Source: Cinnamomum chago (lineage: Eukaryota; Streptophyta; Magnoliopsida; Laurales; Lauraceae). Taken from it: a stretch of 64,000 nt of DNA. The translations under genes were made by a program, and so were the position numbers. The notes under the pieces were generated by a model. It did not search any database. It was not told where the DNA came from and saw only the letters and a list, made by a program, of their open reading frames with translations. Of the stretch, positions 33,613 to 42,483 are shown piece after piece (the first letter of the stretch is position 1; every line of letters begins with the position of its first letter). The stretch covers positions 17,368,501 to 17,432,500 of the forward strand of contig CP142454.1 in the NCBI GenBank assembly GCA_038049695.1, in the 5' to 3' direction.

Positions 33613-35649
33613 TAATTAATAAATGGTTCGAGTTAAGGTTGACTCCATTTTCACAGACTTTTCACTCTGCCTAGCAATCCAATTAGATGATTTATTGCAC
33701 TTTAACCCACCAACCTCACTGGAGCTAACCAAGTGATTTTGAGTTTGGGTTGACCCTTTTGACTTTGAAATCGGGTTTGAACGGTCATTTAAAATCAAAG
33801 TTATAAATAGTTGTGTTCAGGTTGGGCAATTACGTGGGTTCGGGAGGTGATTTGCAATTCAATTTATAAATAGTCATGTTCAAGAGAGAGTGGATGCTGA
33901 TAAATATATGACTAGTAGAGCAGATATATAGTGTCCTAAGCCCAAGCCATGATAAGATTTTTTTTATTTAATAAAAATAGTCATAATTTTATCTTGATTT
34001 ATAAAGTAAAAGGAATTAAAATTTAAAAATTATCAGTGACAAAAGGTTCATAATATATAAAGTCTATATAAATTAAGATATTCATTGAATTTGATTTTTT
34101 AAATGACTAGTAATAATTCATATACAGAAAGAATATAATCGATCAACCATCACTTTCGCCCCTACAAGCAAACCTTTGCTCTGCCACTGAGTACAACTCT
34201 ATAGTAAAGCCCTCATTAAAAATCCGACCCACTCAAAATAAACAACTTCTTAATATATCTTATCTCTTGAATTTGACCAAGAAAATGGATGATATCACAT
34301 TTTCTATCAAACATCCCATCTTAAGGTGAGACGAAGTTCGACTGGATAAATTTTGGATGATAACCCATATGCTTGGATCTTTTACATGTGGGACCCACCA
34401 TAGATTACCTCTCCTTCAATGGGTTCAGATTCCGGACTCATGCTGCACCGATTTAGGTGTGGGCTGGATGCTTAACCAAATATCTTGTCCTACTTTCAAA
34501 CAGAATGTGAGGAAGGAGCGAGGAACCATCATCCTCTCTCTCTCTCATGGCAACTGGCGTTAGGAACTCCGCAATGGTCCTCAAAAACCGTATTAAAGCC
34601 CTAAATCATGTCTTCTTCTTCATCTTCTATAGCCCCAAAACCCCATTACAGTTGATCATTTGTAAAACCCTGGATGCACAACTCCATTGGAGTATAAGAT
34701 TAAAAAAAATCTCTTCTGTTTCTTTAGTTTGCATTTTGGTTTCTTAAACCCAAAATTGTTATCACATTAACACAATTTTGAAATAAGCCACTTTTATGTT
34801 TCTTTTCACTGCTTTTGATTGCCTTTTTTTTTTTTTTTTTTTGCTGAAAATAGGGAATTCATTAAATAATACAGTTGCTTGATTGCATTTTTTTTACCAT
34901 CTCAATATAACTCATGCAAAAAGTTATCATTGTTTTAAAACTTTATTTTATGAATTATATTGCTTGTGCGAAGAACAACCACGTTTGGCTAGTGTTCAGT
35001 GACAGTCACAAGCCAATCTTAAAAAAAAATGTTTACATCTACGGAATCTGGAATGAGGAATTCAATTCAATCCTACTTATTACGTGATTTGAACTTGCAT
35101 TCAACCCATTAGGTTTGTGCTGATTTGAACAGTCCAAGTTGTTTTATATCTGTCATGAGCAATTTTTGTTAAACTAAGTTCCATTAACATTGGGCAACAC
35201 TGATCTATCCACCTGTCTTATAACTATTCAACCCGAGCTCAACCAGAAATTTAGGAGCGTCAATCCAAACCCAAAATTAATGGGTTGGGTTCATAGATTG
35301 TAGTGCAATTAGTCAGTTAATTTGGGACTTCTAGATGGGTTGAGTTGAATCAATATGAACCCATCCCATTTGTTCATCAGATAAGAAATGTCAACCCAGG
35401 GTCCCGGACCCAACTCAAAAATAAAAATAGTCACCATGGCATTTAAATATTGACCTGGGTTGTTAGAGGACTGTTCACTACATCATATCAATATCACGGA
35501 TATCACGGGATTCTAATATAGTGTGCAGCTTCCGATCACAAATCTATCTATTTATCTATCTATATTACTAAAAGGATGTACTCTTCATCACATGAAGACA
35601 CATGTCCTCCCTGTTATGAAGACACATATCTGCCTTCATCAACCCACAT
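33613..35649. repeat. Duplicated upstream region shared with block E
   Basis: 33613-35540 is collinear with 55116-57023, including AAATCGGGTTTGAACGG-type DNA, the CCTCTCTCTCTCTCATGGCA region and GTGTGCAGCTTCCGA. The last 0.1 kb, from about 35545, is a separate repeat (TCTATCTATATTACTAAAAG) also present at 41640. Confidence 0.75.
34546..34746 (+). pseudogene. Possible first-exon fragment of an unidentified gene
   Basis: An open frame starts at ATG 34547 after a CT-rich leader. The sister copy at about 56084 starts MAIGISSSPAVLKIPKSSLL, rich in Ser and Leu like a plastid targeting sequence, and both contain IIxKTLDAQ. The two copies disagree in frame further on, so at least one is broken. No family is recognised. 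Confidence 0.3.
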
Positions 35650-35759
35650 CACTACCAGAGATTTGGTTATTGGCTCAGCAATAAGCGGGCGACCGTCTCT
35701 GTGCGGTCGCAAAAGGGCCATTCCCGTATAACCCCACGGAACCCACTTTCTCTTTTGTT

Positions 35760-35914
35760 TTTTTTTTTTCCCTTCCCACTCTTTATTTCCTCTCCCGCGC
35801 TCTGCCCTCGCGCGCCCAATCTCTGCATCCCGCCGCACCAGCCGTCCACCGCCAGAGCCCGCCTGCGCCGGAGCCTCCACCGGTTCTCTCTCTCTTCCTC
35901 CCTCTCTCTCTCTC

Positions 35915-35958
<44 letters not shown>

Positions 35959-36467
35959 ACCGTCCCTCTCCCTCTCGCTCTGCCCTGTGCCCGCCCGCGC
36001 CCACGCCATAGCCGGAGCTTGCCTGCGCCGGAGCTCTCTCTCTGCACTGTGCCCTCGCTCCCGCTTGCCGAAGCCCCCACTCTCTCTCTCTCTCTCTCCC
36101 TCCCTACTCTGATTTCTCTGTTTGACTTATACAGCTATAGACTCTTGAATCTAGGGTTCTTGCAATGCAGTTTTTGTGTTGTTTCGTTTCTTTATTGGTT
36201 TTATTAGTTTCTTCCAAGGATGTTATGGGTTTTCAATGAAATTTAGTGGGGTTTCGTTCTCTCATTGTGTTGGCAATGATTTCTTCTCTGTTTGGGCAAA
36301 AAATAGGGATGATTAGCTTATTCTAGGGTTTTTCAAGGCAAATTTGTGTTGTTTATTTACTTTTTTTTCTTGGGTTTATTGATAATTTCTTGATGAGATT
36401 AGCGTTCTTGGATGCAGACTGCAGGCACTTTGCTAACATTGATTGATTGTTTTTTTTTTTTTTTCAG
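35760..36467 (+). other. CT-rich leader and intron of the captured zinc-finger unit
   Basis: 35880-36110 is a (CT)n/CCCTCTC tract containing two copies of GCCTGCGCCGGAGC (about 35861 and 36021). It resembles a 5' UTR. It is followed by T-rich, intron-like DNA ending TTTTTTTTTTCAG at 36467, just before the zinc-finger exon. Confidence 0.45.
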
Positions 36468-36978
36468 GAATTGCATTGCTTTAAGATATATGGGTGGCAT
36501 TATAGTAGAAAGGCAAGGATACAAGAGAATCCATAGTCGTCCTGGTCAAGCTCAATCACAGAAGAAGATTTGCTTCAATTGGCAATCATCTGGTCACTGC
36601 TATTGCCATCACTGTTCCTATCTTCATCCCCAATTGCCCCATGATGACACCACTTCTCAATCTCATCCTCCGAAGAAGCAATGCCACCGCCAGTTACCAA
36701 TTGTCAACACCAACAACAATAATCCCGGGAGACCAACTCCTCGGGCTTTCGTTTGGAAAAATCCTAATTATAACCATCATAACAAAAAAACCTCTTATAT
36801 TTCTTCGAAACCCAATCCAAGAAACCCCAGCTGTGATCAACCCAGGGTCACTCCTTCTTCCAAACCCAATCCAAGAAACCCCAGCTGTGATCAACCCAGG
36901 GTCACTCCTTCTTCCAAACCCAATCCAAGAAACCCCAGCTGTGAGTTAAGAGGTAGTGTGCCTTCAATCAATTTCTAA
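36468..36978 (+). pseudogene. Captured exon of a CCCH zinc-finger (ZFWD-like) gene
   Basis: After a splice-acceptor-like TTTCAG the frame from ATG 36490 reads VERQGYKRIHSRPGQAQSQK, then one CCCH finger ICFNWQSSGHCYCHHCSYLH (C-x8-C-x4-C-x3-H), then basic Pro/Asn-rich sequence with RAFVWKNPNYNHH. The layout resembles the N-terminal finger of plant zinc-finger/WD40 (ZFWD) proteins, but the finger spacing is one residue longer than I expect and no WD40 repeats follow. Three tandem copies of a 54-bp unit (18 residues, SSKPNPRNPSCDQPRVTP) occupy 36807-36945. The frame stops at 36978. The ZFWD assignment is from memory of the family. Confidence 0.6.
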
Positions 36979-37180
36979 AGGTTTCTTTCCTTTCTTCCCC
37001 TTTTTTGTTTGAAATTGAAAATCAAGTTTCATTTGGATATCTTAGAAAATGAGAAAAAAAATCACTAGATAATCGACTGTGTTTTACTACAAGATGTGAG
37101 TGAGTGAGTGAGTGATCTTGTGTTTAATTTAGTGATATTTTGGATTTTTAGGGTTTGGATTCTTATTTCTTTGATTGCAG

Positions 37181-37268
37181 GAAAGGGGATTATTATCGTT
37201 ATCTTGCTGAATTCAAGGCTGGGAATGAGAAGAAAGAAGATGCGGATCAGTCATTGAAAGCATATGAG
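37181..37268 (+). pseudogene. Captured internal exon of a 14-3-3 protein gene
   Basis: Directly after TTTGATTGCAG the exon encodes [20 protein letters not shown], continuing to SLKAYE, the highly conserved 14-3-3 segment with the phosphopeptide-binding Arg-Tyr pair. The exon would end at GAG 37268, but the next bases are GC instead of GT, so the donor is changed. No other 14-3-3 exon is present. Confidence 0.85.
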
Positions 37269-38338
37269 GCATTCCTTCTGATTCTTCTTTTGTTGTTCTT
37301 TGATCATCTTATGACTCTGCTACGAGCTCTTGGTTGAAGTTAAGTTTGGTAAGGTGTGTTTTTTTAGGGAGTTGTTTTGGAAGAAGAATTTGCTAGATCT
37401 GGCTGGATGCAGTATATAGGATTGGAAGTCTGAGGATGAAAGCTTTTACTTACAATTTTGAAGTAGTTTGTGTTATTTAGGTTATTGGATTAATTGAAGT
37501 GCGAACCAGGTACCGATGGAATCCCTCGTGTTTGCACCTTTCTTTGCCAGGCATGGAGGCCTGCTCTTCAAGATCTTCTAAAAGCAACAAGACAAAAAAT
37601 GAAGTTGGTTTCGTTCTCTGGTAGAAAAAAGATGGAAGTTATTTCTTCACTTGGTTATGTAGTTCTAAATTAGTGGAGATTACTTTAGTGCCCACGTTTC
37701 TCTAGCTTGAAATGGGCAGGAAAAATTTTCCTCTTTTTGATGGTAAGAGATGGTGGTTCTTCCTGTAAGAGCAGTCATTTCCGAAGAATGATTGGGCTCC
37801 CTTTTTTTGTGTAACATCATGGGTTTCCCTTTAAACACAGAGAATGCTTCTTGAAATAGAAAAAATCTGTTATTTCTATTTGTTGAGCTTTAAGATGAAT
37901 GTTTGGACCACCCCTTGGGGTTTGAAACGTGAGGAACGAAAGGTATGTGTTGAATCTGTTTTGCCTTTTTAATTTCTTAGGGACGTTATCATTAATCTTG
38001 GGTGACTCATGCGACCTAAAGGCTACAGGGCGAGTTCATCTTTACCTTGCTCGTATGAGTAAGATCAGCGTTATTTGCAAGCAGAGTAAAGATTGGAAGG
38101 GCTCTTAGTTTTGGTTTTGCATTCTTGGGCTCATTTCCCTTTACTCAATTCCATGTGGAATGATTCTTGAGGTGTTGGTTTGATCCTCTGGACTCTATCT
38201 TGTAGGTGTTCCTTGGCCCCTTCCAAAGAAAAAGTGTATTTGTGCTCAGGTGCTGGGGCAAAACTTTTTTCAACAGGCACCTATGATGAGGTGTTGTTCA
38301 AAAGATCATACCTAATTCAGTACTTAGACCTGATTTGT

Positions 38339-38362
38339 GGGGGGGGGGGGGGGGGGGGGGGG
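38339..38362. repeat. Homopolymer of 24 G
   Basis: An uninterrupted run of 24 guanines. Such runs are rare in plant DNA and prone to assembly error. Confidence 0.95.
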
Positions 38363-38934
38363 CGCATTTGATTTATGGGAAGATGAATCTCAAACTACCT
38401 AGCAAAACAAAGAAATGAAACATGGAATTTGATTTATGTAGATGTTTCCCTTTCTCTTCACTTTGTTTTAATAGTTTACATTCACTGTAGACCCAATGTA
38501 GACCCAAATTTTTTTTTTAAGCTAACTCCTGATTGATTGGAGGAAGTTAGGATATTGATGATGATATTCATAGATGCAGGCATATATTTTTTTTTCATAT
38601 TTTTAAAAAAGTGTATGAAGAGAATTGGTAACCAGTGCATGTTCTTGTGAGGGACCTCAAATTTATTTTTTTATTATGTTTATTTTTAAAATTGTTATTG
38701 TCTTGAACTTGGAAAGCTCCAATTATTTATATATAATGCTGTTTGAAATCTATTTCTATGTGTGTGTTAACTATTTCTTTTTCATCTCATGATTTTCTCT
38801 TATGGTGGTTCTACTCTTATAGGTTTCTCTTAATTCTATCCATGTTCCCTTGTAATTCTACGCATCCATTTTAGAACAAGTATTTTAGTTCCTTCTTCAT
38901 TTTATCATACTCAACTCTGTGGAAGAGAGCAAGT

Positions 38935-39210
38935 CTAATTGTTGTTCCCCTCTGTGCATTCCATTCTTTGATTTCTGCATTGGGTTGGGATTGTTGCATT
39001 TTCTTCTGGGGCCTGCTCATTGAAGAACTCCAACTGACCCACATACATGAACACCTCAGAAGCTCCTATCAATACATATTGGGGTACTGTGGAAAGACGG
39101 AGACCCCCATGGAGGAACAAAGATAAATGAATGTTGGTTAGAGATAAATGACTTAGATCCCTAGTGAATTTTACCACTTTATGCACGTGCTTTCGATGAT
39201 TTTCTATCAT
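38935..39210 (-). pseudogene. Captured fragment of an NPF (NRT1/PTR) transporter gene
   Basis: The minus strand at 39092-39006 reads VPQYVLIGASEVFMYVGQLE followed by FFNEQAPE. This is the conserved segment near the C-terminal transmembrane helices of plant nitrate/peptide transporters (NPF). The surrounding frame is not family-like, so only about 30 codons are recognisable. Its orientation is opposite to the other captured exons. Confidence 0.75.
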
Positions 39211-39422
39211 TATTGTTGTGTTCGGAGCACAAGACGATGCCCTACTTAGCTTGGCACTTTAACCAATTAAACTTCTTACACATATCTGACACTAAGACAA
39301 ACTTATTTGCACATACTGCACATAATTTTTACAAACATTTTTTTATGTGTATTGGATATTTATGTTGGCTACGTTGATAATCATATCTTTTGTTGTTCTG
39401 ATGAAAATTTTATCTACTGCAG

Positions 39423-39494
39423 AGACCTTAACTTTAACAACTTGACAAGAGTAATTCTAACAAACTTTGATGGGTTGTCTGCAATGGACTTTAT
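39423..39494 (+). pseudogene. Probable captured leucine-rich-repeat exon
   Basis: A 72-nt segment between CTGCAG and GCAAGT reads DLNFNNLTRVILTNFDGLSA then MDFM. This resembles one 24-residue LRR with the 72-nt exon size usual in plant LRR receptor kinases (subfamily VIII-like). A GC donor would be needed. Further possible exons (39640-39760, 39799-39858) are not identified. Confidence 0.45.
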
Positions 39495-41249
39495 GCAAGT
39501 AATCTGGCATTTCCTATGCTATCTTTTTTCCCCTCTTATTCCCTCACTTTGTTTACATTTGAAAGTTGAAAATCTATAGATTTGCTCATATTTTGCAGTG
39601 TCCTTCACATTGACAATGATTCTTTTTTCAATAATGAAGGTATCTTACAAACAACTTGCTGACCGGGGAAGTACCCAATTGGATCTTGAAAACAACAGAA
39701 ACTTGTATGTAACCCATTCAGAACTACTACTGAGGCTAGTGTGTTCCCTTGATACATGCATAAACATAATATTTGTGCTTGTGGTTCTTTTCTTGCAGTG
39801 ACTGATCTTGGAGCCATTATACAAAATCCCCTCCTTCAAATTGTGCACAAGGGAACCTGTAAGAACACCCGTCATTCAAATTAGAATTGCTCTATCAATT
39901 ATAATTTTGTTATATCATATTTTATGTACATTCGTTTGATAATAGCTCACCAATTTGGCATCTCTCATCAGCCTTACCAACTGCATTGATCATCAAGATG
40001 ACAAGCTTAGTCATTGTCATGAGTTCATGTATTTGTTTCAGATCTCTTATCCTTTTGGCAAACAAGTGTTACATATCGACCAGATTGGGAATAATGACAT
40101 CGATAGAGGAGGATATAGATTAGGGTTGGTAAATCCTCTCTTCTGTCTAATACTTCAGAGGTTGTTTTGGGTGTACTAAAGATACAGGCTGTTCATTGAG
40201 CGGACGAGATGCATATGTGATCATTGGATAATGAAGTTTCTGACTTCCATGTCAGGTGATGCAAAGGGGCCTCACCGTGGAGAATGCATGGATGGGATGG
40301 TGCACCCATGCACTTGTGGAATGATATATGGGTATGACAGTCATTTTTTCTGATAATTTGAGTGTGAATTTGACTTTGACAAAATTCTTTAACTTATTTT
40401 AATATCGGGTGGTATATATGCATTATAAGGCCATCTCAATTTATTTTAAGTTGTGTTTTGCTTTCTTTTCTTCTTGTACTCGTCTTTGCACGTCTTTGCA
40501 TGTATTTTGAAAATCAGGTCATAGAAACAGAGATAAATGAATTGTTGGTTAAAGACAAATGACTTATATTCCTAGTGAAATTTACCACTTTGTGCAATTC
40601 TTTCATTGGTTTTCTTGTGATACTGTTGTGTTCAGAGCACAAGCTGATGCTCTGCTTAGCTTTGCACTTAAATCAATTAAACTTGTTACACATATCTGAC
40701 ACTAAAACAAGCATATTTGCATTCACTGCGTATATACGTTTTAGAACCATTTCATTTTCTTTGTGTATATTGGTTATTTATATTGATAATCATACATTTT
40801 TTCATTCTAATGAAAATCTTATCTACTAGCAGGGACCTTGGAGAAACTGACGGAACGAGATTCCGACTCTCTGATTGCTCGTAATGTTGAAACGTTGGTT
40901 AAAATTTTAATTTTAATTCTTAATTTTTTTATATTTATTATAAATTGCCAATTTTTATACTTATTTATTAATATTTATTTTTCTTTTTCTGTTCAGGTTT
41001 GAGAGCATCGGATATACCACGGCACCCTACACGGAAATTTTTTTTTTCCCTGTAATTGTAATGGATATAATTTATTGAAACTTTTGTAATGTTTTGAATA
41101 TAATTAATATAAGACTTTCTTTTGTTATTTGTAATTTTAATTAATGGTAGTAGTTGTATATACTCAGGTATAGGTACAGGTACAGGTATGAAAAAAGGAC
41201 AAAATTTGAGAAATACGGAATATTTTTTTTAAAATTTTTTTTGTTAGTT

Positions 41250-41515
41250 TTAGCGGCCGCCACTGGCACTATTAGCGACCGCCACTAATACTTAAAAAAA
41301 AAAGAAAAAAGAAAAATTCAAATAAACAATGTATTAGTGGCCGCTATATGGAGTATTAGCGACCGCCAATAGTCCAAATTTTTTTTTTAAAAATTATTTG
41401 CGACGAAGTTTCCGCGTCCGTCGCGGGTCGGTCGCTGAGCGGTCGCTAAAAAGTATTAGCGACCGCCAGCCCACTTTTAGCGACGGCTTTTGGCGGCCGC
41501 TAAAAGTCAATTTTC
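41250..41515. repeat. Subterminal repeats of the CACTA element
   Basis: Repeated TAGCGACCGCCA, TAGCGGCCGC and TTAGTGGCCGC motifs in both orientations. Arrays of this kind are binding sites for the CACTA DNA-binding protein in known elements. Confidence 0.7.
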
Positions 41516-41523
41516 TAGTAGTG

Positions 41524-42483
41524 GATGTGGTGTAATGCACTCTCTCAAATCTCCCCTCTCCTCCAAACAAGCATAACTTCCTCAAAAAAATCTCTCCACT
41601 CTCCTCCAAACAAACTTTTGTATAAGATCCATCTATCTATCTATATTACTAAAAGGATGTACTCTTCATCACATGAAGACACATGTCCTCCCTTATATGA
41701 AGACACATGTCTGCCTTCATCAACCCACATGTGGTGTAATGCACTCTCTCAACTCTCCACTCTCCTCCAAACAAGCATAACTTCTTCAAAAAAATCTTTC
41801 CACTCTCCTCCAAACAAACTATTGTATAAGATGTCTGCAAGAAACTTCTTCCATGAAATCAATCTCCAAAGGATATAGGTCCCACATGGATGATCCGATC
41901 TCATCATCTGGTCCGTTCATCGAGCCGAACATGGTGGGGCGACCTTAGATATGTAGACCCTTGAGAGCTGGCCCCGTTTGGTCCACTATCCAGCAACCCA
42001 AAGGGGCTGACGGCCTTGAGAATGAAAATGGGTTTTTTCCTCTCTTTTTTTGGACTGTGGGGCCATGTGGGCCATTGATTTCAGATCTGGACCATAGATC
42101 ATGAGAAGGGGGCCTAGGCGACTTTATTGGTGGGGTCTGATCTGGGTTATGATCAGGGGAGCCCACGTTTTTCTATCTTGGTAATTTTTAGCACCCGTGC
42201 GAGGAGTCCTGTTTAGGGACTTCTTGATACAGAACGTTGCAAATGGGGAAGAAGAGACAAGCATTTTTTCGGTGGTCAGAGGGAATATTGGAAATTGTAG
42301 ACCTTTTGCCCTGGGCACCTTTTTTTTCTTTTTTTAATCGACCCAGTTTTGCTTTTCCTTAAGTTTTATTAAAGAATTTAATCTTCTCTTTGATTGGTTG
42401 TTGTAGAATTTATTAGTTATTATAAATATTTTCTATTTTTATAAGGGAATGTATTCTCCCTTCAAATGATATCAAATGAGAGC
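41524..42483. repeat. Dispersed repeats between the CACTA element and block D
   Basis: 41527-41635 and 41730-41835 are two copies of one sequence (ACTCTCCTCCAAACAAAC), the first broken by the CACTA insertion, its other half being 35545-35649. 41940-42070 is an inverted relative of 28830-28920 and 47690-47780 (ACAGTCC, CTTTCTCA and GTCCACC motifs). No gene is recognised. Confidence 0.6.

Follow-up and report, generated by a model that had tools for sequence, protein, structure and literature searches.

A non-autonomous CACTA element of Cinnamomum chago with pieces of unrelated genes and relatives of nested cargo

Elements of the Tpn1 family of morning glory, which are related to En/Spm, carry pieces of host genes. 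In soybean, the 5.7-kb CACTA element Tgm-Express1 of the wp allele holds both intron and exon sequence from five unrelated genes, according to the accessible part of its description (PMC1947982). The way in which pieces of unlinked genes enter DNA transposons is described as unsettled in the Transduplication section of a 2026 review (PMC13317346), which allows that an undiscovered mechanism may exist. We report here on a CACTA element from Cinnamomum chago (assembly GCA_038049695.1) that lies in a window of 64,000 nucleotides (contig CP142454.1, C4:17368501-17432500), and on its relatives in the searched genome (1.06 Gb, 14 contigs). A literature search of limited coverage, with subscription papers mostly outside it, returned no description of this family. 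We favor, with a probability of about 0.6, the explanation that the element is a non-autonomous Pack-CACTA whose cargo arose by stepwise fusion and trimming of elements through microhomology-mediated repair.

Termini, insertion site and mobility

All positions are those of the window, and loci fetched for comparison are denoted L with a number. The element and its insertion site comprise the following features.

35650..41523, plus strand: whole CACTA element, 5,874 bp, defined by termini, target duplication, siblings and empty site
35647..35649, unstranded: left target-site copy, CAT
41524..41526, unstranded: right target-site copy, GAT, with one mismatch to the left copy
35650..35665, plus strand: 5' terminal inverted repeat, matching the 3' end at 13 of 16 bases (by eye)
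41508..41523, minus strand: 3' terminal inverted repeat (by eye)
41627..41804, plus strand: empty-site paralog of the insertion point, outside the element

The element begins with CACTACCAGA at 35650 and terminates with TCTAGTAGTG ending at 41523, and its siblings carry CACTACTAGA. These ends form inverted repeats of the CACTA type, and GCGACCGC-like subterminal repeats, recognized by eye, lie near the 3' end. Identical 3-bp flanks were found in six of the seven siblings with both ends in hand (L011/L012, L013, L014, L017, L018 and L021), the exception being L022. When the flanks of the window copy were joined and aligned to 41627-41804, 169 of 181 positions were identical and a single 3-base gap fell exactly at the insertion point, which indicates an empty site and a 3-bp target duplication. 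The clean CACTA termini proposed by an earlier, sequence-only reading of the window are thus borne out by the ends themselves, by the sibling target duplications and by the adjoining empty site. The insertion lies in a repeated unit of ~180 bp, a second copy of which follows directly (35546-35650 and 41627-41804).

Relatives are widespread in the genome. The first 601 bp of the element have at least 13 other full-length matches at 81-92% identity (40 of 390 candidates scored), and a 31-base pattern of the 3' end with a few open positions has 228 matches, the window included, against none for the reversed control. Several copies are dispersed and fragments of host genes (ZFWD, 14-3-3, NPF) lie between the ends, so that membership of the element in the CACTA (En/Spm) superfamily and among Pack-CACTAs is well supported. 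The dispersed copies with target duplications speak for past movement only.

No transposase was found in the element, in line with the earlier reading: using tblastn, five TNPD proteins of this genome had no match in the window, the element, L001-L032 or L040, and a Pfam scan of 10 of the element's 78 listed open reading frames (ORFs) returned no transposase. The CACTA transposase family PF02992 gave 1,658 first-look candidates genome-wide. All of the 150 that were scored exceeded the cut-off, many with open frames of >700 aa and several with identical scores, which suggests recent activity. A transposase made elsewhere in the genome would move the element.

Cargo, donor genes and the prospect of a chimeric transcript

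Between the termini the cargo is arranged as follows.

35885..36110, plus strand: CT-rich leader (from sequence)
36257..36944, plus strand: ZFWD-type gene DNA, with 5' intron-like DNA and first coding exon, 86% identical to L025
36490..36978, plus strand: open frame from the captured ATG, 162 aa
36812..36944, plus strand: 54-bp tandem repeat ending at the zinc-finger/14-3-3 junction, units starting at 36812, 36866 and 36920
36942..37521, plus strand: module with 14-3-3 DNA, common to elements L022, L026 and L027
37071..37095, plus strand: 14-3-3 exon tail (STVFYYKM)
37096..37180, plus strand: native 14-3-3 intron, 85 bp, GT..AG
37181..37268, plus strand: 14-3-3 exon (PF00244), next donor GC in the window copy
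37517..39005, plus strand: third module, parts of which are also in L030 and L031
39005..39086, minus strand: NPF (NRT1/PTR) exon piece, antisense, 100% identical to L038 (C6:73.592 Mb)
39087..39112, unstranded: 26-bp filler, common to L012 and L032
39113..40841, plus strand: DNA from beside an NLR gene (C9:71.066 Mb), 97.2% and 96.2% identical to L029
40836..41523, plus strand: 3' subterminal region with GCGACCGC-like repeats and terminus

The proposal of a non-autonomous element with pieces of unrelated genes was right, and three donors have been located. The CCCH-zinc-finger exon derives from a ZFWD-type gene (L025, C4:80.306 Mb; 86% DNA identity over 621 columns), which continues into a PF00642 finger (E=8.7e-6) and then a WD40-like stretch. 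In the window, the frame holds only the first, degenerate finger, read by eye as C-x8-C-x4-C-x3-H, and had no zf-CCCH match in the Pfam scan. Pfam recognizes only the second finger of the donor, which is missing from the window element and is present in L021 just under the cut-off. The opposite-strand NPF piece had weak profile matches (PF00854 E=0.002, under the cut-off; PDB NRT1.1 E=0.004) and is decided by its identity to the NPF gene L038 at 82 of 82 bp. A probable leucine-rich repeat (LRR) exon had also been suggested and is not supported: no LRR match was found by Pfam in five ORFs scanned from 39271-41002 or in two ORFs of the donor stretch, and this DNA comes from beside an NLR gene, with the donor (L029) ~1.4 kb beyond an LRR-bearing ORF. 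Three points extend the earlier reading: the module at 37517-39005, the filler of 26 bp and the source of the 3' half. In the window copy, the third module includes a run of 24 G at 38339-38362. L030 (C2:57425500-57430000) is CT-rich, shares 37517-38869 with the element at 96.9%, holds a Ras-family piece (PF00071 E=6.9e-18) and is apparently a different multi-gene chimera.

The pieces retain intron and exon structure, as they would in one degraded ordinary gene region without any transposon. Donor introns and exons in normal order elsewhere, or siblings without CACTA ends, had been named in advance as observations that would refute the CACTA reading. The siblings share the same ends and have target duplications, an empty site exists, and the donors lie apart, on C4, C6 and C9; a degraded single gene region is therefore refuted.

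The 14-3-3 exon is confirmed by matches to PF00244 (E=2e-8) and to 14-3-3 proteins of the PDB (E=3.7e-8). In L028 and L039, the two 14-3-3 genes examined, the native 5' splice site corresponds to 37096, and thus the donor at 36950, from which an intron to 37181 had been drawn, is not native; the acceptor at 37181 stands, and the intron becomes 37096-37180. The further junction expected from 37268 onward lacks its GT in the window copy, where the donor is GC; all 10 other element copies compared and both genes have GT at this site. When 19 GT sites (36900-37150) were joined to 37181, only TGA|GTTAAG at 36944, a weak donor, yielded an in-frame zinc-finger/14-3-3 fusion, of 203 aa. The element could give rise to a spliced chimeric transcript.

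These observations bear on whether the element could be a young chimeric gene, transcribed from the CT-rich leader and with its zinc-finger frame, perhaps together with 14-3-3 residues, under selection. In 10 of 13 copies the frame is uninterrupted from the ATG, with neither a frameshift nor an early stop, the native 14-3-3 intron and acceptor are intact, and the fragments of soybean Tgm-Express1 are reported as spliced in the accessible text of PMC1947982. Over the first 115 codons of 11 copies (L012 and L018 excluded), however, raw counts gave 8 synonymous variants over 63 sites and 17 non-synonymous variants over 249 sites, and the window copy alone has a residue change inside the finger. 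In addition, a stop codon lies just upstream of the 14-3-3 exon tail, and the strong splice sites yield no fusion. The captured zinc-finger frame appears to bear no clear sign of selection, and we consider a young chimeric gene improbable. The cargo is most likely without a function of its own, and the effect of the element on the plant is probably small.

Nested cargo, different 3' ends and the proposed assembly of the element

BLAST of the element against the fetched loci revealed copies with successive cargo. Zinc-finger DNA occurs without 14-3-3 in L020, L021, L023 and L024 and together with 14-3-3 in L022; in L009, L010 and L014 the third module is added to these two, in whole or in part. 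The cargo is extended by NPF/NLR DNA in L011/L012, L013, L018 and L019, of which L013 and L018 have lost the NPF piece, and the interiors of L015, L016 and L017 are shortened. Identity to the donors is 86% for the zinc finger, 98.4% for NPF (in L012, 623 columns) and 96-97% for the NLR flank, an order that seems broadly to agree with that of the nested cargo.

Different 3' ends are found on one 5' half. Compared with the window copy, L014 is 95.9% identical at the 5' end, 98.8% in the interior and 76.1% at the 3' end; L017 and L021 are 95.2% and 91.7% identical at the 5' end and 72.1% and 75.2% at the 3' end, respectively. L032, which carries NPF/NLR DNA, is 90.3% identical to the window copy at the 3' end. 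In L041, which holds both NPF and NLR pieces, the 5' end matches that of the window copy at 74% over the alignment.

Microhomology was found at five of the six boundaries scored: 3 bp between zinc finger and 14-3-3 (left side read by eye, the anchor having fallen in the repeat), 5 bp between 14-3-3 and the third module, 3 bp between the third module and NPF (a deletion relative to L012), 4 bp at a ~260-bp deletion within the NLR DNA, and 5 bp between the NLR DNA and the 3' end. NPF and NLR DNA are separated by the filler. At the first junction, the 54-bp unit is present three times in the window copy and twice in seven other fused copies, and it is single in the donor and in all four unfused copies; L022 scores one unit, which was read as a 15-bp deletion in the first unit.

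Under the favored explanation, an ancestor would initially have taken up the first coding exon from a ZFWD gene. This would have been joined to 14-3-3-bearing DNA and the third module, both of which are also present in other elements, and in the last step the 3' half, including the terminus, would have been replaced by that of a related element with NPF and NLR-flank DNA. The joins may have been made by microhomology-mediated repair or by template switching, perhaps at breaks left by transposition. The boundaries, the three donors, the nested copies, the different 3' ends on one 5' half and the microhomology are observed; the order of these steps, the repair pathway and mobilization in trans we infer. 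More generally, we suggest tentatively, and with less confidence, that template switching during repair, guided by microhomology, builds multi-gene Pack-CACTAs and that subfamilies exchange whole 3' halves; the present family would then have kept copies of successive steps.

The chance of at least 3 bp of microhomology at five of six scored junctions is ~6e-6 under a simple model (match probability 0.27), which speaks for stepwise fusion by microhomology-mediated repair. Several points weigh against stepwise fusion as set out here. The model takes the references as certain, and the six boundaries scored are those with a reference on both sides. Absence of cargo is complete only for L014, L017, L021 and L022, for which both ends were fetched, and several sibling 3' ends lie outside the comparison. 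L022 is without NPF/NLR DNA, yet its 3' end is 85.4% identical to that of the window copy; with the 2.65 kb that L022 and L026 share, this shows that the 3' types number more than two and do not strictly follow the cargo. The NPF and NLR identities do not tell which piece came first. For the 14-3-3 DNA the search returned no close donor, and the best genes are ~74% identical. Finally, no autonomous partner was found: the five TNPD loci examined, of the 150 scored, are without GCGACCGC-type subterminal repeats, although one of them, L036, contains CACTACTAGA, and the 4.7 kb of L040, which is related at the 3' end, yielded no partner either.

The exchanged 3' ends are also what would be shown by hybrids formed when two close, related CACTA elements lose their facing ends and the outer ends move together with the DNA between them, in which case microhomology would stem only from later deletions. 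This model of Pack-CACTA capture reportedly goes back to Catoni et al. in 2019. The available parts of PMC8903248 and PMC13317346 describe it together with fused AB elements. The adjoining NPF and NLR pieces, whose donors lie on different chromosomes, and the filler at their join are not accounted for by a single hybrid step. We regard capture between neighboring elements as a serious rival, albeit an unlikely one as the whole account; it is compatible with stepwise fusion as one of several steps, and the two may belong to the same story.

Further observations were made on individual copies. L015 (C11:7.76 Mb) and L016 (C9:48.57 Mb) agree in their left flank and in their BLAST blocks, and represent either a segmental duplication or an assembly duplicate. 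L011 is interrupted between positions 884 and 891 of the element by a 3.6-kb insertion, at the edges of which 8 bp of element sequence are repeated, as expected of a hAT insertion. In the fetched stretch of L009, a frame of 281 aa on the minus strand (1821-2663) weakly matches the BED zinc finger (PF02892 E=0.015, under the cut-off).

Comparison with described elements

The element is a further case of a known kind, the Pack-CACTA, and its family with nested cargo is the useful part. Since the copies differ by one or a few modules, donors are located and junctions are readable, real sequence can be used to compare rival models of capture, and the differing subsets of cargo among relatives make the order of patchwork assembly readable. 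If the template-switching reading is true, the family could decide how DNA transposons acquire pieces of unlinked genes.

The Tpn1 family resembles the window element, by description only, in holding host gene pieces within an En/Spm-related element. Tgm-Express1, as far as the accessible text of its description goes, is a close analogue: it is of similar size, belongs to CACTA, is without normal cargo of its own and carries pieces of unrelated genes. It differs in the genes involved and in having transcripts demonstrated by reverse-transcription PCR, whereas the window element is known from sequence alone and is the one for which a family with nested cargo is seen. With the Pack-CACTA and Pack-TYPE elements of Arabidopsis, rice and maize, as presented in the available part of PMC8903248, the window element shares its non-autonomous nature, intact ends, target duplication, cargo from multiple loci and fused types; to these elements the present family adds three located donors, junctions that have been read, and a comparison of copies with successive content.

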